Below are positions 2,964 to 17,103 of a stretch of DNA of 51,096 nt, one piece after another. Both the position numbers and the translations under genes were made by a program. How positions within the stretch are numbered: position 1 is the first letter of the stretch; each line of letters begins with the position of its first letter. This DNA is from an uncultured Bacteroidia bacterium (GTDB lineage Bacteria; Bacteroidota; Bacteroidia; Bacteroidales; UBA932): assembly GCA_902794005.1 (NCBI GenBank), contig CADBFO010000011.1:1-51096 (forward strand), in the 5' to 3' direction. Below the pieces are notes generated by a model. It made no database searches, was not told the origin of the DNA, and was given only the letters and a program-made list of their open reading frames with translations.

Positions 2964-3638
2964 ATGGATCCCGTCAAAGTCATTGAGATCAAAAAGAGTA
3001 TATTTGCCGATAACGACGAAGATGCCGCCCGCCTCCGGAAGGAACTCAAGGAGAAAGGCGTCTTTCTTCTGAATCTCATGTCGTCGCCCGGCAGCGGCAA
3101 AACCACCACCCTCATCCAGACCATCGGCCGGCTCAAGGACCGGATCCGCATCGCCGTCATGGAGGCCGATATCGACTCCGATGTGGATGCCGTCAAGATC
3201 AAGGAAGCCACGGGCATCCCCTCCATCCAACTCCATACCGGCGGCATGTGCCACCTGGACGCCGAAATGACCCGCCAGGGCCTTGACAACGTGGATCTGT
3301 CCCAGGTCGATCTCGTCATCCTGGAAAACGTAGGCAATCTGGTCTGCCCGGCCGAATTCGACACCGGAGCCGTATGCAACGCCATGATCCTCTCCGTCCC
3401 CGAAGGAGAAGACAAGCCGCTCAAATACCCCCTGATGTTCTCTGTCTGCGATGTGGTGGTCATCAATAAGATGGACGTGCTCCCCTACTTCGACTTCAAC
3501 CTGGAAAAATGCAAGGAGTACATCCACATGCGCAATCCCAAGGCACAGGTGATTCCCATCTGCGCCAAAACCGGCGAGGGAGTGGACGCCTTCGCCGCCT
3601 GGCTGCTTGAGCAGGTCTGCAACTGGAAAAAACAATAA
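2964..3638 (+). CDS. hypB: Hydrogenase nickel incorporation GTPase HypB
   Basis: A SIMIBI-class GTPase that delivers Ni(II) with HypA during [NiFe]-hydrogenase maturation. Visible in the 224 residues: P-loop SSPGSGKT (40-47), the metal-site pair Cys96-His97 (GGMCHLDAE), Cys128 in the switch region (ENVGNLVCPAEF) and the guanine-specificity NKMD (168-171). The N-terminal CxxCGC high-affinity nickel motif and the His-rich stretch found in some HypBs are absent, so only the G-domain metal site remains. The ATG at 2964 is used because the upstream in-frame residues do not resemble HypB. It is the first gene of a five-gene run that includes hypA, but no hydrogenase subunit or HypCDEF gene is present in the window. 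Confidence 0.93.
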   Translation: MDPVKVIEIKKSIFADNDEDAARLRKELKEKGVFLLNLMSSPGSGKTTTLIQTIGRLKDRIRIAVMEADIDSDVDAVKIKEATGIPSIQLHTGGMCHLDAEMTRQGLDNVDLSQVDLVILENVGNLVCPAEFDTGAVCNAMILSVPEGEDKPLKYPLMFSVCDVVVINKMDVLPYFDFNLEKCKEYIHMRNPKAQVIPICAKTGEGVDAFAAWLLEQVCNWKKQ

Positions 3639-3648
3639 AACCGACTAT

Positions 3649-6480
3649 ATGCCTGAGATGTCAAAGAAATTTGTCCCCAAGCATTTTGGTGACAAAAATC
3701 CCAACCCTAAGCTTATCAAACTGGTCCGCCACATTACGGACCGCATTCCCGGAAAAATCAAGATGACGACGGAAGCCCCCGAATACTGGGGCCTCGCATG
3801 CATCTTCGAGGACGAGATGGATCCCATCACCCGGGAAGCCTCCCTGGACTTGCTGCTGGACATGCTTCCGGGCAATCCCTTCAAGGTGCGCAAGCACTGG
3901 ACCCGGGACCAGCTTCACGAGATGAACCGCAGGAAGCACTATGCCTCCTCGGAGGCCGATTTCGACGCCCTGCTGGACAAACTGGCCTATTTCGGCATGC
4001 TGGAATACGACTACGGAGACCATTACACCAACGGCTGCGGACCGGATGAAGGCACCACCTTCGAGCGGAAAGACCGCATCTACTGGGTTCCCATGTTCGT
4101 TCCCGGCAGCGCGGAATACACCAACATGAATGTGGAACTCATGGACAAGCATCCGGAACTGGCCATGTTCTTCGAGCGCATGACCTTCCTCCCGCTGGAG
4201 AAAATCACCCCGATGGTGCCCATGGGCGGCTCCGGTATCGGCATGCACGTGATTCCGGTGGAGAAAGCCATCTCCATGGAAAACCAGTCCATCGACATCG
4301 AGCACATCTCCTACTGGCTCAAGAAATATGAGGGGCATCTGGGCGTGGGCATCTGCAGTTGCCGTTACGGCCGGAAAAAACTGGACGAAGGCTGCGCCGA
4401 CGACTACCGCGACTGGTGCATCGGCGTGGGCGACATGGCCGACTATCTCCGGGAAACCGGCCGCGGCCACGACATCACCTACGACGAGGCCATGGCCATC
4501 CTCAAGAAGGCCGAAGACCACGGTTTCGTGCATCAGGTCACCAATATCGACGGTGAGGGCAAGATTTTCGCCATCTGCAACTGCAACGTCAAGATTTGCA
4601 ACGCCCTGCGCACCTCCCAACTGTTCAATACGCCCAACATGAGCCGCAGCGCCTATGTGGCCGAGGTGGATCCCAAGAACTGCGTGGCCTGCGGCCGCTG
4701 CGTGGAATACTGCCCCGCCGGCGCCGTGAAACTGGGCCAGAAACTCTGCACCCACAGCGGCCCCGTGAAGTATCCCAAGCACGAACTGCCGGATGCGACC
4801 GCCTGGGGCCCCCACAAGTGGACGGAAGACTACCGCGACAAGAACCGCATCAACTGCTACGAAACCGGCACCTCGCCCTGTAAGACCGCCTGCCCGGCCC
4901 ATATCGCCGTTCAGGGCTATCTGAAAAAGGCTGCCGAGGGCAAATACACGGAGGCGCTGGAACTCATCAAGCGGGAGAACCCGTTCCCGGCCGTGTGCGG
5001 ACGCGTGTGCAACCGCCGCTGCGAAGATGCCTGCACCCGCGGCACCATCGACCGCGCCGTGGCCATCGACGCCGTGAAGAAATTCCTCGCGGAAAGGGAC
5101 CTCCATGCCGAAACCCGCTTCGTCCCTGAAGTGAACATCTGCTCCAACGTGCAAGACCGCTGGGAGGAAAAGATCGCCATCATCGGCGGCGGCCCTGCCG
5201 GCCTGTCCTGCGCCTACTACCTGGCCACCATGGGCTACAAACCCACGGTGTTCGAGCGCAACGAAGAGCCCGGCGGCATGCTCCGCTACGGCATTCCTTC
5301 CTACAAACTGGGCAAGGATGTCCTGAAGGCCGAAATCGACATCATGAGAGAAATCGGCGTGGATATCCGCACCGGCGTGGAAGTGGGTAAGGATGTCACC
5401 ATCGCAGGACTCCGCGAACAGGGCTACAAGGGCTTCTACGTGGCCATCGGCTGCCAGGGCGGACGCCTCCCCGGCATTCCCGGTGAAACCCTCTGCGGCA
5501 CCACTACCGCCATCGATTTCCTGCACAAGGCCAATTGCGGCGACGTGAAGGTCGAGGGCAAGGTGGTCGTCGTGGGCGGCGGCAACGTGGCCATCGACGC
5601 GGCCCGCGTAGCCATCCGAAGCGGCGCTTCCGAGGTGACCATGCTGTCCCTCGAAACCGAGGACATCATGCCCGCTTCCCTGGAAGAGCGCGCCGAGGCC
5701 CGCGAAGACGGTGTGGTACTGAATCCCGGCTGGGGCCCGAAGGAGGTCCTGGGAGAAGACAAGGTTACCGGCATCGTGTTCAAAAAGTGCACGTCCGTCT
5801 TCAACGCAGAGCATAAGTTCGCCCCGGAATATGACGAAAACGAACTCATTACCCTGGAAGCCGACATGGTCATCTTCGCCATCGGCCAAACCGTGGTCCT
5901 GAAAGACCTGCTCAAAGACACCAAGGTGGAATTCTTCCGCGGCGTCTATCCCGTGGCCGACAAACTCACCTACCAGACGGCCGAACCGGACATCTTCGTG
6001 GGCGGCGACGTGTTCACCGGTCCCAAGTTCGCCATCGACGCCATCGCCGCCGGCAAGGAGGCCGCCGAGTCCCTGCACCGCTTCGTGCAGCACGGACACA
6101 TGACCATCGGCCGGAACCGGAGAGATTTCATCGAACTGAACAAGCAGGATATCGTGGTGGAAAGTTACGACAACGGCTCCCGCCAGGATCCCGGCGTGGT
6201 TCCCGTGACCGGCAAGTTCCAGGAATACCAGGGTACCCTGACCGAGGAACAGGTGCGCAAGGAAACGGCCCGCTGTCTGGGCTGCGGCGCATCCGTCGTG
6301 GATGAGAACAAGTGCATCGGCTGCGGCATCTGCACCACCAAGTGCGGCTTCGACGCCATCCACCTGCATCGCGTACATCCTGATGCCAGCATCATGCGCA
6401 CTTCCGAAGACAAGTTCGGCGGAATCCTGCCATACATGATCAAGCGAACCGGCAACATCCTGTTCAAAAAGAACAAGTAA
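3649..6480 (+). CDS. Large Fe-S/FAD NAD(P)-dependent oxidoreductase (GltD/NfnB-like)
   Basis: A 943-residue soluble flavoprotein. The N-terminal third has a helical region, then cysteine-rich CSCRY...EGC and CNCNVKIC segments (about 230-320). Next come a CVACGRCVEYCPAG ferredoxin motif (about 344), a GltD/DPYD-type Fer4_20 domain (CKTACPAH... to CNRRCEDAC, about 410-465), an FAD-binding GGGPAG (about 513) and an NAD(P)-binding GGGNVAIDAA (about 642). The C-terminal ferredoxin segment has CLGCGA and CIGCGICTTKC (about 875-900). This modular build is that of enzymes moving electrons between NAD(P)H and ferredoxin or another low-potential partner. It starts 10 bases after hypB, and its stop overlaps the hypA start (TAATG), so translation is coupled to both nickel chaperones. 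The physiological substrate cannot be read from the sequence. The alternative start at 3658 is also possible. Confidence 0.85.
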   Translation: MPEMSKKFVPKHFGDKNPNPKLIKLVRHITDRIPGKIKMTTEAPEYWGLACIFEDEMDPITREASLDLLLDMLPGNPFKVRKHWTRDQLHEMNRRKHYASSEADFDALLDKLAYFGMLEYDYGDHYTNGCGPDEGTTFERKDRIYWVPMFVPGSAEYTNMNVELMDKHPELAMFFERMTFLPLEKITPMVPMGGSGIGMHVIPVEKAISMENQSIDIEHISYWLKKYEGHLGVGICSCRYGRKKLDEGCADDYRDWCIGVGDMADYLRETGRGHDITYDEAMAILKKAEDHGFVHQVTNIDGEGKIFAICNCNVKICNALRTSQLFNTPNMSRSAYVAEVDPKNCVACGRCVEYCPAGAVKLGQKLCTHSGPVKYPKHELPDATAWGPHKWTEDYRDKNRINCYETGTSPCKTACPAHIAVQGYLKKAAEGKYTEALELIKRENPFPAVCGRVCNRRCEDACTRGTIDRAVAIDAVKKFLAERDLHAETRFVPEVNICSNVQDRWEEKIAIIGGGPAGLSCAYYLATMGYKPTVFERNEEPGGMLRYGIPSYKLGKDVLKAEIDIMREIGVDIRTGVEVGKDVTIAGLREQGYKGFYVAIGCQGGRLPGIPGETLCGTTTAIDFLHKANCGDVKVEGKVVVVGGGNVAIDAARVAIRSGASEVTMLSLETEDIMPASLEERAEAREDGVVLNPGWGPKEVLGEDKVTGIVFKKCTSVFNAEHKFAPEYDENELITLEADMVIFAIGQTVVLKDLLKDTKVEFFRGVYPVADKLTYQTAEPDIFVGGDVFTGPKFAIDAIAAGKEAAESLHRFVQHGHMTIGRNRRDFIELNKQDIVVESYDNGSRQDPGVVPVTGKFQEYQGTLTEEQVRKETARCLGCGASVVDENKCIGCGICTTKCGFDAIHLHRVHPDASIMRTSEDKFGGILPYMIKRTGNILFKKNK

Positions 6481-6830
6481 TGCACGAACTGGGCATCGTA
6501 TTCTACATTATCCGGGACGTCAAGCAGGCGGCTCTGGAACACAGCGTCCAGAAGGTATCCGGCGTGGTGATGAACATCGGCGAGGTGTCCACCATCATTC
6601 CGGATTATCTTACAGACTGCTGGCGCTGGGCGGCCGACAAGGAGGATCTCCTCCGGGGGGCGGAACTCAAAATCAACACCATCCCCGCCGTCACTTACTG
6701 CGAAGACTGCCACGCCGAATACGGAACGGTCGCCCATGGCAAAATATGCCCCCGCTGCGGAAGCGAACACACCTGCCTTCTGAGGGGCAATGAAGTGGAA
6801 ATCAAAGAAATAGAAGTACCTAACGAATAA
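6480..6830 (+). CDS. hypA: Hydrogenase nickel chaperone HypA
   Basis: A nickel-binding partner of HypB. The 116-residue protein begins MHE, so His2, the nickel ligand of the family, is present. The zinc-ribbon ligands are Cys74/Cys77 (CEDC) and Cys90/Cys93 (CPRC). Length and ending are normal for HypA. Its ATG shares a base with the stop of the oxidoreductase gene. Separation of hypB and hypA by a flavoprotein gene, with no hydrogenase nearby, is unusual. Confidence 0.93.
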   Translation: MHELGIVFYIIRDVKQAALEHSVQKVSGVVMNIGEVSTIIPDYLTDCWRWAADKEDLLRGAELKINTIPAVTYCEDCHAEYGTVAHGKICPRCGSEHTCLLRGNEVEIKEIEVPNE

Positions 6831-6834
6831 AAAT

Positions 6835-7185
6835 ATGTCTTGTTTTATCGCTCCCCTGGTGGCGGCCGTCGCCACTACCGCCATCCGTAAAACCCGTGCC
6901 AAGGCCGTCAAGGCTCCCGGCTCCTCCCCTTTCCTGCATCACCTTCCGGACCTGGAGAAGATGCTGTGGGGCGGCACCCTCATGCTCATCGTGGACCATG
7001 TCATCAACGGAGAACTCACCTGGGCCTTCCCCTTCTTCACAGCACTGGGGGAAAGCGGCGGCGCATCCCTCATGCTCCGGGAAATCCTGACGGTGGGCGT
7101 TCCCATGGCGCTGATCCTGATCGCCGCCTGGGCCGTTTGGGCCGTCGCAAAAGACAGAAAAGTTTCCAAACAACTCAATAACTAA
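6835..7185 (+). CDS. Small membrane protein of the hyp/DUF5692 operon
   Basis: No characterised family. The 116 residues start MSCFIAPLVAAVATTAI, a hydrophobic stretch followed by a basic RKTRAKAVK linker. There are then two likely transmembrane helices (about 43-60 and 84-106) separated by an aromatic loop, and a basic C-terminus. It lies 4 bases after hypA and 12 bases before the DUF5692 gene, so it is probably a partner subunit of that membrane protein. Confidence 0.7.
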   Translation: MSCFIAPLVAAVATTAIRKTRAKAVKAPGSSPFLHHLPDLEKMLWGGTLMLIVDHVINGELTWAFPFFTALGESGGASLMLREILTVGVPMALILIAAWAVWAVAKDRKVSKQLNN

Positions 7186-7197
7186 AACCAACAAACC

Positions 7198-8295
7198 ATG
7201 TTTTTCCAAGTGTATGGGGCAAACGCCCTCTCTCAATGGGGAATGCTCATCGTGGTCCTTCTGGGCCTGATTCTCCTCAATGAGTTCGCCCGTCGCACCA
7301 AACTGGGCGGCATCATCACCTTCCTGGCCATTCCGCTGGTCCTGACCGTTTACTTCCTTGCCATCTGGTTCGGCGTTCGCAACGGCAGCCAGTGGGCGCT
7401 TGAAAACCAGACCCATGTTTACATGCAGGGCTGGTTCCACTACGCCAAGCTGTATGCGGCCACGGCCGGGTGTATCGGCTTCATGATGATCAAGTACAAA
7501 TGGGGAATCGGTGCCAAGCACTGGTTCAAACCCTTCCCGTTCATCATCGTCGGCATCAACATCCTCATCGCCTGCGTATCCGACTTCGAATCGGCCGCCA
7601 TGGGCTGGAACAAGTGGTGGCTCACTTCCGAAGGCGTATGGCAGTACGGCGGCTGGCACAATGTGATGAACGGCGTCGCCGGCCTCATCAACATCATGTG
7701 TATGACCGCCTGGTGGAACGTCTATCCTTCCAAAGACAAGAAAGACATGATCTGGGCCGACATGACCTGGGTTTACATCATCATCTACGATATCTGGAAC
7801 TTCGCCTACACCTACAACTGTCTGCCGACGCACAGCTGGTACTGCGGTATCGCCCTGCTCCTCGCCCCCACCGTGGCCGCTATCCTTTGGAACCGCGGAG
7901 GCTGGATTCAGAACCGCGCCAATACCCTGGCCATCTGGTGCATGTTCGCCCAGGTATTCCCGCTGTTCCAGGAAACCTTCAAGAACGGTCAGCAGTGGTT
8001 CAGCTGGGCTACTTTGCCCGTGCTTTATCCCGAAGGTGTGGATACCATTGCCAAACTGTATGCCGCTGCCGGCGGCGAAGCCGCTACCGTGGGAACCACC
8101 GTGGATCCTTCCACAGTGGCAGCCAACCCCAACATGATGATTTTCATCAGCGCCCTGGCCCTGGTGACCAACCTCATCGCCATCTGCTACATCGCCTATG
8201 TCTCCAAGAAGCGTCACATCAACCCGTACAAGGAAGACGTCTTCGTGGACCAGAAGTACTACAAGGACGCCATGGCCCGTGCCGACCTGTCCTAA
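7198..8295 (+). CDS. DUF5692 family polytopic membrane protein
   Basis: A 365-residue inner-membrane protein with about 8-9 hydrophobic helices. It is unusually rich in Trp (WGIGAKHW, WNKWWLTSEGVW, TAWWNVYP), with conserved-looking acidic and aromatic residues in the loops (DMTWVYIIIYDIWNFAY). I recognise it as DUF5692; the function is unknown. It is the last gene of the hypB-oxidoreductase-hypA operon and is followed by a strong hairpin terminator. Transport or membrane electron transfer in support of the nickel or redox genes is only an inference. Confidence 0.8.
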   Translation: MFFQVYGANALSQWGMLIVVLLGLILLNEFARRTKLGGIITFLAIPLVLTVYFLAIWFGVRNGSQWALENQTHVYMQGWFHYAKLYAATAGCIGFMMIKYKWGIGAKHWFKPFPFIIVGINILIACVSDFESAAMGWNKWWLTSEGVWQYGGWHNVMNGVAGLINIMCMTAWWNVYPSKDKKDMIWADMTWVYIIIYDIWNFAYTYNCLPTHSWYCGIALLLAPTVAAILWNRGGWIQNRANTLAIWCMFAQVFPLFQETFKNGQQWFSWATLPVLYPEGVDTIAKLYAAAGGEAATVGTTVDPSTVAANPNMMIFISALALVTNLIAICYIAYVSKKRHINPYKEDVFVDQKYYKDAMARADLS

Positions 8296-8332
8296 ATCCT
8301 GACTCACAGATACCTCTGTATCAATCACTTTC

Positions 8333-8369
8333 AAATAATCCTCTGCGCAAAAAGCGCAGAGGATTATTT
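8333..8369 (+). terminator. Hairpin terminator after the hyp/DUF5692 operon
   Basis: A 16-base perfect stem (8333-8348 with 8354-8369) around an AAAAA loop. Arms read AATAATCCTCTGCGC and its complement. No long T-run follows, but the 3' arm ends ATTATTTA. Its 29-base core recurs with one mismatch at 13835-13863, on the other side of the glpABCT operon. Confidence 0.75.
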
Positions 8370-8413
8370 ATAACATACTCAGTGACAGGACTTTACGCGC
8401 CAGGTGAAAGAGA

Positions 8414-8445
8414 TTTGTTTTACCGGGAAAATATGGGTAAATTTG
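8414..8445 (+). promoter_or_regulatory. Promoter of the glpABCT operon
   Basis: TTTG at 8414-8417 and TAAATTTG at 8438-8445, with exactly 20 bases between: a full match to the Bacteroidota TTTG/TAnnTTTG promoter. The start of transcription should fall near 8450. This excludes the ATG at 8447 and supports the ATG at 8468 as the glpA start. Confidence 0.75.
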
Positions 8446-8467
8446 TATGATTAAGAATACGCACACG

Positions 8468-10063
8468 ATGAATCCCAACGAATTTGACGTTATCATCATC
8501 GGCGGCGGCATCACCGGGGCCGGAACCCAGCGGGACTGTGCCATGCGCGGGCTCAAGACGCTCCTGATCGAACGCTCGGACATCGCGACCGGAGCTACCG
8601 GCCGCAACCACGGCCTGCTGCACTCCGGCGCCCGTTATGCGGTGAACGATTCCGAATCGGCCGAAGAATGCATCCGTGAAAACAGGATTCTCCGGAAAAT
8701 CGCCGCCCATTGCATCGACGAGACGGGGGGGCTGTTCATCACCCTCCCGGAAGACGATCCGGAGTACCAGAATACCTTTGTGGAAAGCTGTCTGAGGGCC
8801 GGGATCGAGGCCGAGGTTATCGACCCTGAACTGGCCCGCCGCTGGGAGCCCACGGTGAATCAGAATCTGACAGGAGCCGTGAAGGTCCCTGATGCCAGCA
8901 TTGACCCTTTCCGGCTGTGTGCCGCCAATATGCTCGATGCCAAGCTCCGCGGAGGCCAGGTTCGCCTGCATACGACGGTTACCGGCTTCATCAAGGAAGG
9001 AGACACGGTACGGGGCGTTCATACACGCAATGCCCAGACAGGGCAGGTTAATGATTTTTATGCCCGCATCATCGTGAATGCCGGCGGGGTCTGGGCACAG
9101 GAAATCGCGGCCATGGCCGGTGCGCAGATTAGTCTGTACCCGGCCAAGGGCTCCCTCCTGATTTTTGCACACCGGGTGAACAAACATGTCATCAACCGTT
9201 GCCGCAAGCCCTCCAATGCCGATATTCTTGTCCCCGGAGACACCGTCTGCATCGTGGGGACCACCTCATCCCGCATTCCTCTTGATGCCTGCGACGAGGT
9301 AGCGGTCACGCCCGAAGAAGTGAACCTGCTGATCACGGAAGGGTCCAAACTGGCTCCCGTCCTCTCCTCTACGCGCATCCTGAGAGCCTATGCCGGCGTG
9401 CGTCCGCTGATCAGCACGGACAAAGATGACAGTGGCCGCAACATCACCCGCGGCTTTGTAATCCTGGATCACGAGTCCCGGGACGGGATAAAAGGCCTTG
9501 TGAGCATTTGCGGAGGAAAACTGACCACATACCGGCTGATGGCGGAAAAAACCACGGATCTGCTTTGCCGAAAACTGGGCAACGAAAAAAAATGCATGAC
9601 GGCCGTTTCGCCACTGCCTGGATCGGAAGAAGGATCGTACGAGAAAGTGGCCCAAAAAATCTGGGAAACGCCTTCCACCGCCCAGAAAGCGGCCGCTTTC
9701 CGCATGGGGACCCGCGCCTTCCGGATGCGCAGTTCGGACCGCTGGAACGACGCCCTTGTCTGCAAGTGCGAAGAAGTGTCCGTCGGCGAAATCAACGGGG
9801 CCATCGAAAGGATGGATGCATCCACCCTCACAGACCTCCGAAGGCGCACGCGGCTGGGAATGGGGCCCTGCCAGGGAGAATTCTGCGCCTGCAGGGCAGC
9901 CGGCCTGCTGGCAGCCTCGCATGGTTGTATAGACCGGGAGAGAGAAGATCTGAACCAATTCCTTCAAGAGCGCTGGAAGGGCAATTTCCCCATCGGCTGG
10001 GGAGACACGCTCCGGGAAGCGGAATATACCCAGTGGGTGTATAAATTCGTTCTGGGCCTATGA
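8468..10063 (+). CDS. glpA: Anaerobic glycerol-3-phosphate dehydrogenase subunit A
   Basis: The catalytic FAD subunit oxidising sn-glycerol 3-phosphate to dihydroxyacetone phosphate. In the 531 residues: FAD motif GGGITGAGTQRD near the N-terminus, RNHGLLHSGARY and a DAO fold. A C-terminal BFD-like [2Fe-2S] domain carries CKCEEVSVGEI and GPCQGEFCACRAAG. The ATG at 8468 is preferred to 8447, which lies within the promoter start region. It overlaps glpB by ATGA, and glpB overlaps glpC the same way, indicating translational coupling and equimolar GlpABC. GlpC should carry electrons on to menaquinone. Confidence 0.95.
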   Translation: MNPNEFDVIIIGGGITGAGTQRDCAMRGLKTLLIERSDIATGATGRNHGLLHSGARYAVNDSESAEECIRENRILRKIAAHCIDETGGLFITLPEDDPEYQNTFVESCLRAGIEAEVIDPELARRWEPTVNQNLTGAVKVPDASIDPFRLCAANMLDAKLRGGQVRLHTTVTGFIKEGDTVRGVHTRNAQTGQVNDFYARIIVNAGGVWAQEIAAMAGAQISLYPAKGSLLIFAHRVNKHVINRCRKPSNADILVPGDTVCIVGTTSSRIPLDACDEVAVTPEEVNLLITEGSKLAPVLSSTRILRAYAGVRPLISTDKDDSGRNITRGFVILDHESRDGIKGLVSICGGKLTTYRLMAEKTTDLLCRKLGNEKKCMTAVSPLPGSEEGSYEKVAQKIWETPSTAQKAAAFRMGTRAFRMRSSDRWNDALVCKCEEVSVGEINGAIERMDASTLTDLRRRTRLGMGPCQGEFCACRAAGLLAASHGCIDREREDLNQFLQERWKGNFPIGWGDTLREAEYTQWVYKFVLGL

Positions 10064-11193
10064 GATTTGACACTGTCATCATCGGCGGAGGCCTGGCCGG
10101 ACTCACGGCCGGCATCGCCCTGCAAAGGGAAGGTAAGAGTACCGCCATCATCAGCACCGGACAGAACGCCCTGCATTTCTTCTCCGGGAGCTTTGAATCC
10201 GTCGTGGAAAAAAACGAGCGGATGATCGACTTCTTTGCCAAGGCCGGCATCCCGCTCCACTATGCCCCGGGCGTGCGCCTGATGCCACTGGGTTCTTTCC
10301 GGCCGTCAGCCCTGTGCCTGGAAGACACGGACATCTTCCCTACTGCAAAAGTAGGGAGCAAAGTGCTCATCGTCAATTTCATGGGCTATCACGATTTCTT
10401 TTCCACCTTCCTGGCCGAAGGCCTGGAGAAAGAAGGGATGCAGTGCCGCATTCGCCTGTTGGATCTTCCGGAGCTGGAGCCGCTCCAGCGCAGTCCCGGC
10501 GGCATGCGGTCTGTCCAGATGGCCCGCATCCTGGACCCCATCTGGGAGAAATTTGTCCAGGAAGTGCGGCTGCTGATCAAGGACGAGGACATCGTGGTCA
10601 TTCCCCAGGTTTTCGGTCTCAAGGATCCTTCCACCCCGGGGCTTATCCGGGAAGACCTTCCGGTGCGGGCAATCTTTGCCGGCACGCTTCCGCCATCGGT
10701 TCCCGGCATCCGCACCCAGCAGCTGCTCGGACGCAACTACGAACGCCTCGGAGGAACCTACCTGAAAGGAGACCATGCTCTGAGAGCCCTGACCAAAGAC
10801 AATCGCATCATCGGTGTCAGTACCAAAAATCTGGATCGACACTATTTGAAGGCCGATACTTTCATCCTGGCCAGCGGCAGTTATTTTTCCAAAGGACTAC
10901 GATCCAACCCCTTTGAAATCACCGAGCCCGTCTTTGACCTTGATGTCAATTATTCCCCGGAAAGAAGCGACTGGTACAACCCGAAATTTGCGGCCGACCA
11001 GCCCTATATGCACTATGGCGTAAAGACTGACGAGAACCTGCATGCCATCAAGGGCGGAACAGTGATTCAGAATCTGTATGCCATCGGCTCTGTCATGGGT
11101 GTCTCACACCCCCGCTTCGGATTCGGCGCCGGCCTGGCCATCCGAAGCGCATTCCATGTCACGGACCAAATCGTTCAGGAGAGCAAAGTATGA
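10060..11193 (+). CDS. glpB: Anaerobic glycerol-3-phosphate dehydrogenase subunit B
   Basis: The second flavin subunit of the anaerobic dehydrogenase. The N-terminus has VIIGGGLAGLTAGIAL, a dinucleotide-binding motif, and FILASGSYFSKGL and GFGAGLAIRSA are family-typical later segments. At 377 residues it is slightly shorter than the E. coli protein (about 419). It lies between glpA and glpC with ATGA overlaps on both sides. Confidence 0.93.
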   Translation: MRFDTVIIGGGLAGLTAGIALQREGKSTAIISTGQNALHFFSGSFESVVEKNERMIDFFAKAGIPLHYAPGVRLMPLGSFRPSALCLEDTDIFPTAKVGSKVLIVNFMGYHDFFSTFLAEGLEKEGMQCRIRLLDLPELEPLQRSPGGMRSVQMARILDPIWEKFVQEVRLLIKDEDIVVIPQVFGLKDPSTPGLIREDLPVRAIFAGTLPPSVPGIRTQQLLGRNYERLGGTYLKGDHALRALTKDNRIIGVSTKNLDRHYLKADTFILASGSYFSKGLRSNPFEITEPVFDLDVNYSPERSDWYNPKFAADQPYMHYGVKTDENLHAIKGGTVIQNLYAIGSVMGVSHPRFGFGAGLAIRSAFHVTDQIVQESKV

Positions 11194-12401
11194 AAATCCA
11201 GGAATACACCCAAAGCAAGTACAACTTCGAAGAGTGTATGAAGTGTACAGTCTGCACCGCCTATTGCCCTGTCCTGCAGGTTAATCCCCTGTTTCCCGGC
11301 CCCAAGCAGTGCGGCCCCGACGAAGAGCGTCTGCGTCTGAAAGACCCTTACTTCTTCAATACTGCGCTCAAATATTGCATGAACTGCAAACGCTGCGAGG
11401 TAGCCTGCCCGTCCGGCGTCAACGTAGCGGCTCTGATTCAGTCCGCCCGCATCCATTATGACCATACACCGCCCAAAGTACGGGACCGTATCCTGGCATC
11501 CACAGACTTTATGGGGAAAATGGCGAGGCCTGTCGCCCCCGTCGTCAATGCCGTAACCGGGCTGGGCATTACCAAAACGGTTCTGGATGCCACCCTGAAA
11601 ATTGATCACCGGCGCAGTTTCCCCCGATACAGCGGAAGCAGTTTCACGGCCTGGCTCAAGCGACACCGGAAAGAGCAGGCAGCCTTTGAGGAACAAGCCG
11701 CCTACTTCCACGGTTGCTATGTCAATTACAACCATCCACAACTTGGGAAGGATTTGGTCAAGGTTCTCAACGCCCTGGGGGTGGGAGTCCAGTTGCTGGA
11801 AAAAGAAAAATGCTGCGGCATTGCGATGATTGTAAACGGGATGAGCGCCCGCGCGGCCCGCAATGCTTCCGTCAACATCGCCTCCATCCGGAAGGCGGTG
11901 GACAAAGGCTTGAAAGTGCTTTCCACCTCCTCCACATGCGTCCTCACCCTACGGGACGAATATCCGGAACTGCTGGGGATCGACAACGATTCCGTCCGCG
12001 AAGATATCCTCCTGGCCACCCGATTCATCTTTGAGAGAATGGAAGCGGGCGCCACGCTGCATTTCAGGCCGGACTACCACAGGCGTATTGCCTACCACGT
12101 CCCCTGCCACCTGGAGAAATTGGGATGGGGCGTGTTCTCGGAACGGCTTCTGCGACGGATCCCCGGAGTGGAATTCACCCTGCTGGATTCCAACTGCTGC
12201 GGCATTGCCGGCACCTACGGCTTCAAAAAAGAAAATTACGAGGCCGCCCAGAACATCGGCGCCCCCCTGTTCGACCAGATTCGCTCCGTCGATCCGGAGG
12301 TCGTAGCCTGCGACTGCGAAACCTGCAAATGGCAGATTGAGATGAGTACCGGCTACCCGGTCATGAACCCCATCTCCATCCTGGCCGAAGCCCTGGAATA
12401 A
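11190..12401 (+). CDS. glpC: Anaerobic glycerol-3-phosphate dehydrogenase subunit C
   Basis: The Fe-S electron-transfer subunit linking GlpAB to the quinone pool. The 403 residues contain two [4Fe-4S] motifs (CMKCTVCTAYCP about 16-27 and CMNCKRCEVACP about 66-77). Two CCG-type domains follow (EKCCGIAMI and DSNCCGIAGTYG with CHLEKLGWG), as in GlpC and heterodisulfide-reductase-like subunits. It overlaps glpB by 4 bases, and glpT follows after 15 bases. Confidence 0.95.
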   Translation: MKIQEYTQSKYNFEECMKCTVCTAYCPVLQVNPLFPGPKQCGPDEERLRLKDPYFFNTALKYCMNCKRCEVACPSGVNVAALIQSARIHYDHTPPKVRDRILASTDFMGKMARPVAPVVNAVTGLGITKTVLDATLKIDHRRSFPRYSGSSFTAWLKRHRKEQAAFEEQAAYFHGCYVNYNHPQLGKDLVKVLNALGVGVQLLEKEKCCGIAMIVNGMSARAARNASVNIASIRKAVDKGLKVLSTSSTCVLTLRDEYPELLGIDNDSVREDILLATRFIFERMEAGATLHFRPDYHRRIAYHVPCHLEKLGWGVFSERLLRRIPGVEFTLLDSNCCGIAGTYGFKKENYEAAQNIGAPLFDQIRSVDPEVVACDCETCKWQIEMSTGYPVMNPISILAEALE

Positions 12402-12416
12402 ACAAAACGACAAGAT

Positions 12417-13790
12417 ATGCTCAAATTCCTCCGACAGCCGGCCTACCTTCCGGCACAGACCGGCTCCGAGGCCGATGCGAAATACAAACGGCTGCGCCTG
12501 CAAGTGTTCATCGGCGCTTTTATCGGATATGCCGGCTTTTATCTGGTGCGCAAAAATTTGTCCATGGCGATTCCTGCCCTGGCACCGCTGGGGTTCGACA
12601 AGACGGAACTGGGATTTGTCCTGGGCCTGAATGCCGCCGCCTACGCGCTTTCAAAATTTTTGATGGGCAGTGTGAGCGACCGCTCAAACGCCCGGGTGTT
12701 CCTCCCCCTCGGCCTTGTCCTCTCCGCCATCTCCATGTGCTTCATGATTGTTCCCATCCAGGCCATCGGCGCAGAACACAAAGCACTGGCGATCCTGGTG
12801 ATGGGCGTGCTGAACGCACTGGTGGGTTGGTTCAACGGAATGGGCTGGCCTCCTTGCGGCCGCGTGATGACGCACTGGTTCTCCCCCAATGAGCGCGGCA
12901 CCATGATGAGCATCTGGAACTGCGCGCACAACATTGGCGGCGCACTGGTCGGGCCCATGGCCACCTACGGCGCCGTGTGGTTCGGCAGCTGGTTCTACGG
13001 GGCCCATACGGAACTGTACTTCCTTATCGGCACCTTTGTCTTCCCGGCCGCCGTCGCGCTTTTCATCGCCCTGCTCACCTATATCCTCCTGCGCGATACG
13101 CCGCAATCCTGCGCTCTTCCGTCCGTGGAAGAGTGGAGAAACGACTATCCCAAGAATTACTCCGCCAAACACGAGGAGACCCTTACCGCCAAGGAAATCT
13201 TCTTCCAGCATGTGCTCAACAACAAGTTCCTGTGGTACATCGCCCTGGCCAACGCCTTCGTTTACATGGTGCGCTACGGCTGCCTGGACTGGGCCCCCAC
13301 CATCCTGACAGAGAAAGGCATCGACCTCAAAAGTGCCGGCTGGGCCTACTTTGCCTACGAGTTTGCCGCCATTCCAGGGACCCTTCTGTGCGGCTGGCTG
13401 TCCGACAAACTCTTCCACGGCAAGCGAGCCCTTCCCACCATACTGTTCATGGCTCTGGTGCTGGTTTTCATCCTTTTGTACTGGGCATTTATCGACAACC
13501 TCACCGTGGTAATCATCAGCCTCATCGGCATCGGTTTCTTCATTTACGGACCCGTCATGCTCATCGGCGTACAGGCCCTGGATCTGGCCCCGAAAAACGC
13601 GGCCGGCACCGCCGCAGGCCTCACCGGTTTCTTCGGATACTTCCTGGGAACCTTTATCCTGGCCAATACGGTCATCGGCTGGGTGGCACAGCAGTTCGGC
13701 TGGGGCTGGACCTTCATGCTGCTGGTAGGCGCCTGCATCCTCGCCATTCTTTTCATGGGCCTCACCCTCAAAGAAGAACGCCACGCATAG
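12417..13790 (+). CDS. glpT: Glycerol-3-phosphate:phosphate antiporter GlpT
   Basis: A major facilitator transporter of 457 residues with about 12 transmembrane helices. Family landmarks are GFYLVRKNLSMAIPAL in helix 1, SKFLMGSVSDRSNAR after helix 2 and FNGMGWPPCGRVMTHWF, all typical of the organophosphate:phosphate antiporter group and closest to GlpT. The operon position after glpABC fits G3P uptake. A related hexose-phosphate transporter is the alternative, but the context argues for GlpT. Confidence 0.92.
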   Translation: MLKFLRQPAYLPAQTGSEADAKYKRLRLQVFIGAFIGYAGFYLVRKNLSMAIPALAPLGFDKTELGFVLGLNAAAYALSKFLMGSVSDRSNARVFLPLGLVLSAISMCFMIVPIQAIGAEHKALAILVMGVLNALVGWFNGMGWPPCGRVMTHWFSPNERGTMMSIWNCAHNIGGALVGPMATYGAVWFGSWFYGAHTELYFLIGTFVFPAAVALFIALLTYILLRDTPQSCALPSVEEWRNDYPKNYSAKHEETLTAKEIFFQHVLNNKFLWYIALANAFVYMVRYGCLDWAPTILTEKGIDLKSAGWAYFAYEFAAIPGTLLCGWLSDKLFHGKRALPTILFMALVLVFILLYWAFIDNLTVVIISLIGIGFFIYGPVMLIGVQALDLAPKNAAGTAAGLTGFFGYFLGTFILANTVIGWVAQQFGWGWTFMLLVGACILAILFMGLTLKEERHA

Positions 13791-13832
13791 CGGGCGGTGG
13801 CAAGTAAACACCTATCCCACAACACTTTACGC

Positions 13833-13865
13833 AAAATCCTCTGCGCAAATAGCGCAGAGGATTTT
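13833..13865. terminator. Bidirectional terminator between glpT and glpF
   Basis: A 14-base perfect stem (13833-13846 with 13852-13865) around AAATA, with A-rich and T-rich flanks, so it can end transcription from both convergent operons. The core at 13835-13863 matches the hairpin at 8337-8365 in 28 of 29 bases. Confidence 0.8.
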
Positions 13866-13890
13866 ACATAATTGACTGGTATTCAACCGC

Positions 13891-14637
13891 TTAACAGCCA
13901 CTGAAAACAAGCAGGTAAAGGCCGGCGGCGATGGCGGCGCCAACCATAGGGCCGCACACCGGGATCCAGCTGTAGGACCAGCCGCTGTCGCGCTTGCCGG
14001 CGATGGGAAGCACGGCGTGGGCGCAACGGGGACTCAGGTCCCGGGCCGGGTTCAGGGCGTAACCGGTGGTTCCGCCAAGGGACATGCCGATGCTCATGAT
14101 CAGACAGGTCACTGGCCAGGAGCCGAGGGAACCGGTGGAAGCAGCCACACCGTCCACCTGGAAGGCATTTCCGCTGAAGCCGAGCGCCAGGATGACAAAC
14201 ACCAGGACACAGCTTGCAATAACCTCGCACAGAAAGTTGCGGTAGGGATTGCTGATGGCTGGCATGGTGCAGAAAGTGCCCAGAATGGTGTCGGGGTCAT
14301 CGGCCGTAGCCTTGTAGTGGTCTTTGTAAAATACCCAGACCAGGGAGGCACCCGCGAAGCCGCCCAGCATCTGAGCGACGATATATCCGAGGACAGAAGC
14401 CCAGGGGAAGCTTCCGGCAATGGCCAGCCCCAGCGTGACGGCAGGATTCAGATGGGCGCCGGAAACAGGTCCCGCAACGAGGACACCCATCATTACGGCC
14501 AGTCCCCAGCCCAGGGCAATCACCACCCATCCGGCACCTTTGGCCTTGGATTTGTTCAACGAAGTGGCAGCGCACACGCCGTTACCCAGCAGTACCAGCA
14601 CCAGCGTGCCGATAAATTCAAAAATATACTGTGTCAT
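13891..14637 (-). CDS. glpF: Glycerol uptake facilitator (aquaglyceroporin) GlpF
   Basis: A 248-residue MIP-family channel with six membrane spans. Both pore motifs are present, NPAV after SGAHL (first half) and NPARDLSPR (second half). The Asp after the second NPAR is the residue usually linked with glycerol-permeable members. It starts 11 bases after the glpK stop, so glpK and glpF are co-transcribed leftward, ending at the shared terminator. Confidence 0.93.
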   Translation of the reverse strand: MTQYIFEFIGTLVLVLLGNGVCAATSLNKSKAKGAGWVVIALGWGLAVMMGVLVAGPVSGAHLNPAVTLGLAIAGSFPWASVLGYIVAQMLGGFAGASLVWVFYKDHYKATADDPDTILGTFCTMPAISNPYRNFLCEVIASCVLVFVILALGFSGNAFQVDGVAASTGSLGSWPVTCLIMSIGMSLGGTTGYALNPARDLSPRCAHAVLPIAGKRDSGWSYSWIPVCGPMVGAAIAAGLYLLVFSGC

Positions 14638-14648
14638 CGTCCATTGAA

Positions 14649-16130
14649 TTATTTACTGACCGTGCGGCCGATGGCGTCGGCCCAACCTGCCTTGGCGGCG
14701 GTCATATCGGCGCCGGACGGCAGGAAGCAACGTTCTGCCTGCCACTGGGCCTTGATTTCGTCCAGGGAGTTCCAGTAGCCTACCGCGAGGCCGGCCAGGT
14801 AGCAGGCACCCATGGCGGTGGTCTCGGTAACCACCGGACGCACCACGGAAGCGCCCAGGATATCGGCCTGGAACTGCATCATCATGTTGTTGCGGGAAGC
14901 GCCGCCGTCCACTTTCAGTTCGGCCAGCGGAACGCCGGCGTCCTTCTCCATGGCCTGCACGATGTCCATCGTCTGGAATGCAATGCCTTCCAGCGCCGCA
15001 CGGGCAATATGGGCCGATGTGGTGCCGCGGGTGATTCCGCAGATGACACCATGGGCATACTGGTCCCAATAAGGGGCTCCCATACCGGTAAGGGCCGGCA
15101 CAAAATACACGCCGCCATTATCCGGGACGGAAGCCGCCAGGGCTTCCACCTCGGAAGAGGAGCGGATGACGCCCAGCCCGTCGCGGAGCCACTGAACCAC
15201 AGACCCGCCCACGAAGATGGAGCCTTCCAGGGCGTAATTCACGCTGTCCCCTATCTTCCACGCCACGGTAGTAAGCAGGTTGTTTTTGGAAAGGATGGGT
15301 TTGGCACCCGTATTCATGAGAAGGAAACAACCGGTTCCATACGTATTCTTTACGGAACCGGGCTCCGTACACATCTGGCCGAAAAGGGCGGCCTGCTGGT
15401 CACCGGCGATGCCGGCGATGGGGACCTCATGGGCGAAGATGGTGGTCTTGGTGTGGCCATACACTTCCGAAGAAGACTTCACGGCCGGCATCATGGAAGC
15501 AGGAATGCCCAGAAGGTCCAGCAGCTCCTGATCCCATGCCAGGGTATTGATATTGAAAAGCATGGTGCGGGAGGCGTTGGACACATCGGTGATGTGTACT
15601 TCTCCACGGGTTAGCTGCCATACCAACCAGCTGTCCACCGTTCCGAAGCGCAGTTTTCCTGCCGCGGCTTTCTCACGGGCTCCCGGCACATGGTCCAGAA
15701 TCCATTTGATTTTGGTCGCAGAAAAATAGGCGTCGATGATAAGGCCCGTTTTCTGACGGATCTTTTCCACCAGCCCATTTTCCTTTAATGTGTCACAGAA
15801 GGCCGACGTGCGGCGATCCTGCCACACGATGGCATTGTACACGGGGGCACCGGTTTCCGCATCCCAGACGATGGTGGTCTCGCGCTGGTTGGTAATGCCG
15901 ATACCGGCGATATCTTTTCCGTTGATGCCGATTTCGGAAATAGCCTGGGCGATCACCGCCGCCTCACTGGACCAGATTTCCATGGGATTGTGCTCCACCC
16001 ATCCGGGCTGTGGGAAATACTGGGTAAACTCCTGCTGGGCCACGGAACGGATATTGCCATCGTGGTCGAATACAATGGCCCGGGAAGAACTGGTTCCCTG
16101 ATCGAGGGACAAAATATACTTATTGGTCAT
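14649..16130 (-). CDS. glpK: Glycerol kinase
   Basis: An FGGY-family kinase making sn-glycerol 3-phosphate from glycerol and ATP. The N-terminus [19 protein letters not shown] holds the phosphate-binding DQGTSS motif. Further landmarks are [16 protein letters not shown] and [13 protein letters not shown]-like and [14 protein letters not shown] segments. The ATG at 16130 matches the usual family start; ATGs at 16148 and 16142 are possible but reach further into the upstream gene. It overlaps the upstream hydrolase by 11 bases, and a GGAAG stretch precedes the start. Confidence 0.94.
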
Positions 16131-17103
16131 AGACGCTTCCATCTTCAATCATGTTGTGGACGGTCTTCAGAAAATTGGAAACCTTGGCGATGTAAGTCTC
16201 AGGGTCTTTCTGATAGGAATTGGCATGAACGGCGCCATGGCACACGTACATTTCCTTGTAACCCTTCTTCTTGGCGTCGTAGCACATCTGGAGATTGTCG
16301 AACGGAACGAAGTCGTCGGCATCGCCGTGGATGAAGAGCATGGGACGGTCACACTTGGCCACCTGCTTCACGGAAGAAGCCTCCCAGAAGCCCCAGCCGT
16401 AGTTTTTCTTGGTCACGAGGCTGGCGCTGTTGAGCACATCCTTGGGGATGAAGCCGAAACTCTCCTTGCGGTTGTTGTTGAACTGGATGGCGACGGAGGC
16501 GTAGCCGCAGTCCTCCACGAAGCACTTCACATAGTCCGGGAGGGGTTCGCCGCTGGTCATCATCACAGTGGCGGCCCCCATGGAGACGCCGTGCAGCACC
16601 ATGAAATCGTCTTTGAACTCATTGTGGGCCACCTCGATCCATTTCAGCATATCCAGACGGTCTTTCCAACCCATCTGGACTTCATCGCCCTCGGAATAGC
16701 CATGATACTGCAGATCCGGGAACAGGACGTTGTAATTGAGGAGGTCACGGTACATGCGCACCAGATAGAGGAAAACGAAGTGGTTGTCGGTATAACCGTG
16801 CACCACGATAGCGGTTCCCTTCGCCTCTTCCGGCTTGGCGGCCGGCACATAGCAGGCGTGCAGTTTATAACCCTCGTCGCTGGTAATCCAGCTGTCTTTC
16901 AGGATCCCCTGGGCTTTAAGCCCGTCATACCAGGCAGTGGAGCCCGGCAGCAGAGAATCGGCTTTGTGACGGGTGCGCTCGATATCGTCCACGCCGTGCG
17001 GCGTAGGTTTGAGGGCATAATCGGACATGTACTTGCCCGCCAGACAACTGTTCAGCGAAAGGGCCACGAGGCCGATGGTGAAGATATGGATGAACTTTTT
17101 CAT
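16120..17103 (-). CDS. Lipoprotein alpha/beta hydrolase
   Basis: A 327-residue hydrolase exported as a lipoprotein (signal [20 protein letters not shown], lipidated Cys20). The fold shows the oxyanion segment VVHGYTDNH, the nucleophile elbow GVSMGA (Ser) and [12 protein letters not shown] with its Asp; a likely catalytic His lies in [10 protein letters not shown]. It belongs to the serine aminopeptidase S33/dienelactone-type group, so esterase, lipase or peptidase activity cannot be separated. It lies between an Omp85-type gene (3 bases upstream) and glpK (overlap). This raises the possibility that it frees glycerol from an ester, which is an inference. Confidence 0.8.

Follow-up and report, generated by a model that had tools for sequence, protein, structure and literature searches.

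A hypB-isrA-like-hypA-DUF5692 operon of mostly ruminant Bacteroidales and its candidate role in nickel-dependent reduction of C=C bonds

What do the nickel chaperones HypA and HypB serve when the gene between theirs encodes not a hydrogenase but a large Fe-S flavoprotein? The question is raised by a contig of 51,096 nucleotides (the window, CADBFO010000011.1) from an uncultured member of the Bacteroidales, whose genome comprises 2.06 Mb in 57 contigs and is 88.96% complete. Five genes on its + strand are concerned: hypB (2964-3638; TIGR00073, 239 bits against a cut-off of 121.2), an IsrA-like Fe-S flavoprotein of 943 residues (3649-6480; Fer4_20, Pyr_redox_2 and several Fer4 matches), a divergent hypA (6480-6830; PF01155, 105.6 bits), a small membrane protein of 116 residues (6835-7185), which has no family over cut-off and is optional in the operon, and DUF5692 (7198-8295; PF18948, 9.6e-129), by hydropathy a polytopic, Trp-rich membrane protein. 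These are the genes and families that the original prediction had placed between 2964 and 8295, and its spacings of -1 to 12 bases agree with the 10, -1, 4 and 12 bases measured from hypB to DUF5692. Its terminator at 8333 stands in part: a terminator-like hairpin with a perfect 15-bp stem and an AAAAA loop can be read on the + strand at 8334-8368, but is absent from the list given by a consensus terminator scan.

How far this arrangement extends was assessed from a scan of genome contigs with the flavoprotein, which matched at least 596 stretches, at least 416 of them with an encoded relative at E<=1e-3, possibly counting partial homologs; the best 80 of these were retained. They are 86-97% identical in the best segment, and their genome titles are all Bacteroidales, Bacteroidia, Bacteroidetes or Paludibacteraceae. 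Ruminant-type labels (RUG, which we take to stand for rumen uncultured genome, Tb.RUG, RGIG, Red_deer and Reindeer) are carried by 67 of the 80, many of them specifying stomach compartments of goat, sheep, yak, roe deer or buffalo; the remaining 13, UBA and SRR bins, give no host, and ruminant genomes are heavily sampled.

In these best 80 loci, HypA lies 3' of the flavoprotein wherever there is room for it (78/78) and HypB lies 5' in 78/79, with the small membrane protein found in 61 loci and DUF5692 in 67. All five genes stand in order at 54 loci. Eleven have hypB-flavoprotein-hypA-DUF5692 without the small membrane protein, six have HypB-flavoprotein-HypA alone and five have these three plus the small membrane protein; at two the contig ends at the flavoprotein, and at two no HypB was seen (none within 2.9 kb upstream of the flavoprotein in L052, and no room for it in L086, with just 166 upstream bases). 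Several of the absent small membrane protein or DUF5692 genes fall at contig ends, and in five loci (L053, L095, L103, L115, L127) there is no DUF5692 in the 4.4-10 kb after the flavoprotein. Gaps within the unit are as long as 346 bases ahead of hypA and 201 bases behind hypB. Flanking genes, by crude ORF calls and with many flanks shortened by contig ends, are common to at most 6 of 81 neighborhoods. Median dN/dS against the window copy is 0.09 for HypB (55 of 71 pairs with defined dS), 0.08 for the flavoprotein (71 of 80), 0.14 for HypA (61 of 77), 0.25 for the small membrane protein (48 of 57) and 0.09 for DUF5692 (53 of 54). Since the order is kept in related loci and the median for every gene is at or below 0.25, the grouping exceeds what chance would give: the five genes are one tight, real, conserved and coherent operon.

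Some features of individual neighborhoods deserve mention. NADH-linked [FeFe]-hydrogenase genes (hydB, hydA, hydC-like) adjoin the unit in 2 of the 80 loci (L088, 13205-17358, between hypA and DUF5692; L103, about 5754-9819), a hint of H2 or NADH as electron source. In the window, a glycerol cluster lies downstream of the operon (8447-16148); the + strand carries glpA, glpB, glpC and a gene for a GlpT-like transporter, the - strand glpK (14649-16148) and a gene of the aquaporin family (13894-14637). A tie between the operon and these glycerol-3-phosphate genes was rejected, as GlpA/GlpC matches occur in only 3 of the 80 loci.

In a sample of 395 genomes from across the phylum, a flavoprotein match at E<=1e-100 was found in the window's own genome only; the gene thus appears confined to a branch that such an even sample barely touches. 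The order hypB-flavoprotein-hypA-DUF5692 recurs on a Subdoligranulum variabile replicon (OY725877.1), at 72, 62, 52 and 55% identity, and leaves no space there for the small membrane protein. It is one of two plasmid records matching the flavoprotein at E<=1e-50, the other being a partial match. This replicon (L128; 267 kb) is recorded as a mobilizable plasmid, a possible transfer route for the operon.

Part of the answer is already in print. The available text of PMC10134865 describes IsrA of Acetobacterium wieringae ISORED-2 as a putative isoprene reductase strongly induced by isoprene, more so than any other protein that isoprene induced (LFC 10.7); the case for its own activity rests there on proteomics and comparative genomics. 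Alongside IsrA, the isr operon encodes a ferredoxin, HypB and two copies of HypA; the genome has neither a NiFe hydrogenase nor hypCDEF. For 988 IsrA homologs, among whose holders Bacteroidetes are listed, the same text gives neighbor fractions of 0.73 for HypA, 0.56 for HypB, 0.4 for DUF5692 and 0.21 for TetR, and it suggests that IsrA receives nickel from HypA and HypB, possibly at a six-Cys site. In the literature searched, the word DUF5692 occurs in this paper alone. For strains Y (isoprene) and N (1,3-butadiene), an announcement describes a putative diene reductase cluster of isr-like make-up (PMC12509576). The original prediction had taken the system to be undescribed; this does not hold, because the IsrA/clade 9 group, its HypA/HypB/DUF5692 neighborhood and the nickel idea all appear in the available text of PMC10134865, so that with PMC12509576 the general idea had already been published. 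The window's operon is a probable new branch of this group, with the clade 9 neighbors hypA (78/78) and hypB (78/79) beside the flavoprotein in loci with room. What it adds is a mostly ruminant Bacteroidales branch, a constant DUF5692 partner and the absence of three classical nickel markers from the 51 genomes searched.

The chaperones themselves keep their metal-ligand residues. HypB, a GTPase, has no His-rich N-terminus and retains Cys96-His97...Cys128, all three residues being invariant in 72/72 aligned rows; in HypA, His2, Glu3 and both CxxC motifs are invariant in 78/78 (short or interrupted rows were removed before counting). The available text of PMC10134865 states that these residues are metal ligands, in line with the original prediction that the ligands are intact. 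HypA is over the Pfam cut-off and below that of the NCBIfam equivalog TIGR00100 (73.3 against 88.1 bits), and it is the sole HypA match in the window's genome. Across 51 operon-bearing genomes, HypA (PF01155) was matched in all, with a single match in 48: G577 has two true copies, G570 a second sub-threshold match and G541 a gene split into two matches. The two copies in G577 belong to two hypA-DUF5692 pairs on different contigs (C134 and C152), which suggests duplication of the unit or mixed bins. HypA alone is not a marker of the unit, because many genomes of the order have it (58 of 149 sampled at E<=0.001, 50 over cut-off); a genome of the window's genus (G008) and another of its family (G126) have no HypA match, no DUF5692 and no full-length flavoprotein.

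Do HypA and HypB then work for a classical nickel enzyme encoded elsewhere? The genomes searched were MAGs, the window's own (89% complete) and 50 from the 80 loci. The NiFe large subunit (PF00374) was matched neither in the former nor in any of the latter, and HypD (PF01924) and urease alpha (PF00449) in 0/51 of these MAGs; the positive controls matched in known holders each time. The absence covers these three markers. Two candidates were rejected on this basis, maturation genes for a NiFe hydrogenase elsewhere (large subunit and HypD) and a urease maturation set (urease alpha). A complete NiFe set everywhere and an unconserved order would both speak for maturation genes placed by chance, and neither was found; one of the two original readings, that of a self-contained operon without hydrogenase, is thereby supported, the order being conserved in the best 80 loci. 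There may still be some other nickel enzyme, such as lactate racemase or CODH/ACS, that HypA and HypB serve as general nickel chaperones, the adjacency to the flavoprotein being due to chance or shared regulation. Although the incompleteness of the window's genome and the scope of the marker search leave some room for this, the three absent markers, the single HypA in 48 of 51 genomes, its position beside the flavoprotein at every locus with room and the same gene order in a Bacillota replicon argue otherwise, and we consider this explanation very unlikely.

The flavoprotein is the more probable client, and its sequence offers a candidate place for the metal. An N-terminal CxC...C...C...CxC...C region is followed by [4Fe-4S] motifs, an FAD/NAD(P) core and a C-terminal [4Fe-4S] motif; this is the clade 9 architecture, an N-terminal region of about 340 residues, a Fer4_20/Pyr_redox_2 core and a C-terminal Fer4. 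Residues ~397-881 form a GltD/NfnB-like core (PDB 9bov_A, 1.1e-84; 8oh5_C, 6.1e-78). For residues 1-394, the PDB matches listed (60 of 64, E<=1) all fall within 306-393, a ferredoxin motif, and the Pfam matches are ferredoxin models at 315-367. Cys236, 238, 249, 257, 310, 312 and 317 are invariant in all 81 aligned flavoproteins, from the window, 79 of the 80 loci and Subdoligranulum (L125, with a split match, was left out). By published coordinates only, Cys236/238, Cys310/312 and the motif at 345-355 correspond at a constant offset of 56 to the CxC motifs at 180/182 and 254/256 and the first ferredoxin motif (289-300) that the available text of PMC10134865 gives for IsrA; on these coordinates, both CxC motifs of the IsrA Cys6 "cluster V" site are present in the window's flavoprotein. 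The C-terminal motif departs from the offset, a shift that would fit the 26-residue insertion given for IsrA at 756-782 in the same text. The AF2 model of the flavoprotein is poor (pLDDT 54.3).

Another possibility is that the flavoprotein is an Nfn/Stn-like electron-transfer or bifurcating module, with DUF5692 or another partner doing the chemistry. Its core does match Nfn/Stn subunits, DUF5692 accompanies it in all 51 genomes, and hydAB genes adjoin the operon at two of the 80 loci. Against this, the operon contains no NfnA/NfnSL-like gene, DUF5692 is also found in genomes without the flavoprotein, and the seven invariant N-terminal cysteines lie outside the Nfn-like core; we regard such a module as unlikely.

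DUF5692 is a constant genomic partner in the mostly ruminant Bacteroidales branch. PF18948 was matched in all 51 operon-bearing genomes searched, and coordinate comparison places it beside hypA in 43; in G567 it lies ~7.9 kb from hypA with hydBA-like genes between, and in seven (G545, G547, G548, G571, G578, G585, G590) on another contig, the hypA contig ending within about 1 kb in G547 and G548. In the order sample it was found in 8/149 genomes, the window's own included, 7 of them over cut-off; comparing 51/51 with 7/148 in a Fisher test yields about 3e-40, a figure that ignores relatedness and is not a probability. The AF2 model of DUF5692 is helical (mean pLDDT 68.4). The small membrane protein, with no family at E<=0.001, has conserved LEKMLWGG and DH..NGE stretches.

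DUF5692 also occurs outside the operon. Two genomes of another family (G001 and G120, loci L003 and L004) carry it at 79-81% identity with no full-length flavoprotein and no HypA match, a sign either that the operon was lost or that DUF5692 has a role of its own; in G051 and G042, distant DUF5692 and HypA are on separate contigs; and a Latilactobacillus replicon has a copy of 33% identity, for which an incomplete gene table lists no hyp gene within 6 kb. The cases of G001, G120 and Latilactobacillus argue that DUF5692 is not dedicated to the flavoprotein. The distant DUF5692 of G024 and G042 (L015, 9567-10974; L016, 9659-11120) adjoin a TetR regulator and have no hypA or isrA-like gene beside them, which suggests a wider role for DUF5692.

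These distributions bear on the clients named in the original prediction, the oxidoreductase or the membrane pair. The former is the one already proposed in the available text of PMC10134865, and the latter is not favored. That DUF5692 and the small membrane protein might be the nickel client, or a nickel importer feeding HypB, is suggested by the presence of membrane proteins within a nickel-chaperone operon, by invariant Cys/His in DUF5692 and by the conserved DH pair of the small protein. This is nonetheless improbable in our estimation: the small protein is lacking at 11 loci where the other four genes are all present and has no room in the Subdoligranulum operon, DUF5692 is present in genomes without a HypA match, and no transporter family was matched.

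The reading that we think somewhat probable is that of a self-contained, IsrA-type nickel-dependent reductase operon for unfunctionalized C=C bonds. To judge from the Nfn/GltD-like core, electrons from NAD(P)H (or ferredoxin) would enter at the NfnB/GltD-like FAD center and would pass along a [4Fe-4S] chain to an N-terminal metal site with Cys ligands, for which Cys236, 238, 249, 257, 310, 312 and 317 are the candidates. HypB and HypA, as chaperones, would load nickel into this site. By analogy with IsrA, the reaction there would be reduction of an unfunctionalized C=C bond, probably a conjugated one, in a lipophilic substrate. As a guess, DUF5692, alone or together with the small membrane protein, might deliver or anchor a membrane-soluble substrate or couple the enzyme to the membrane. 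In the rumen, such a system could act as an electron sink or in detoxification of plant-derived dienes (terpenes, unsaturated fatty acids).

The substrate could be terpenes or conjugated fatty acids. Terpenes are proposed as substrates for IsrA homologs in the available text of PMC10134865. Among the testable candidates, the boldest would be conjugated fatty acids from rumen biohydrogenation: the operon would be a rumen Bacteroidales system hydrogenating conjugated dienoic/trienoic fatty acids, with a nickel IsrA-type reductase and DUF5692 supplying the lipid. For this speak the mostly ruminant source of the operon (67 of 80 titles labeled, from heavily sampled hosts), the suspicion that uncultured Bacteroidales take part in biohydrogenation (PMC4353346, available text) and the oleate hydratase that neighbors the IsrA homologs of A. 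woodii and A. fimetarium (PMC10134865, available text). No word starting with "linole" occurs in PMC10134865, and no other paper linking biohydrogenation to such an oxidoreductase or to HypA/HypB was found in the literature searched. In the steer study of PMC4353346, as far as its available text goes, Bacteroidales 16S sequences were fewer after flax and after echium oil, which makes this reading less likely, and Butyrivibrio and others rose after flax. Biohydrogenation is also a small electron sink, taking 1-2% of rumen H2 use (PMC9533493, available text). Also counted against the idea are the heavy sampling of ruminants, the lack of any conserved lipid gene beside the unit in 81 neighborhoods and the lack of oleate hydratase (PF06100) in all 51 genomes. 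Saturation via oleate hydratase was rejected on this last count, which lends nothing to direct reduction of conjugated fatty acids and does not refute it either. Overall, the fatty-acid proposal is doubtful.

If a nickel-loaded Fe-S C=C reductase is indeed encoded here, the clients known to nickel biology would extend beyond the hydrogenase/urease set, and annotation could no longer take HypA/HypB to indicate a hydrogenase. The enzyme may hydrogenate C=C bonds in plant-derived molecules in uncultured rumen bacteria, and since it is frequent in ruminant Bacteroidales, rumen electron-sink or biohydrogenation chemistry has a concrete candidate in this branch. Were the fatty-acid proposal true, there would be a new client class for nickel chaperones, and genes responsible for saturating dietary fat in ruminants would be identified.

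How does the operon compare with known systems? The HypA and HypB of NiFe-hydrogenase maturation likewise keep the metal-ligand residues; the operon's genomes differ in having no HypD or NiFe large subunit match (51 genomes), and the window's HypA in falling under the NCBIfam equivalog cut-off. With NfnB, StnA and GltD (PDB 9bov, 8oh5, 9n5u, 4ylf) the flavoprotein shares the core at residues ~397-881 (E 4e-61 to 1e-84), whereas its N-terminal region with the seven invariant cysteines is left uncovered by the matches to these proteins; no NfnA/NfnSL-like partner gene is present in the window's operon, and we know of no HypA/HypB association for this family. IsrA (VUZ27132.1; 901 residues, against 943 here) likewise has a GltD/NfnB-like core, and the CxC/CxC and ferredoxin positions are shared at the offset of 56, by published coordinates only. 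In both systems hypA and hypB adjoin the flavoprotein and NiFe hydrogenase was not found. With one hypA and no ferredoxin gene, where isr has two hypA and a 4Fe-4S ferredoxin gene, the window's operon is isrA-like rather than isr proper; its order is hypB-isrA-like-hypA, with the small membrane protein and DUF5692 added, and its branch is mostly ruminant Bacteroidales.
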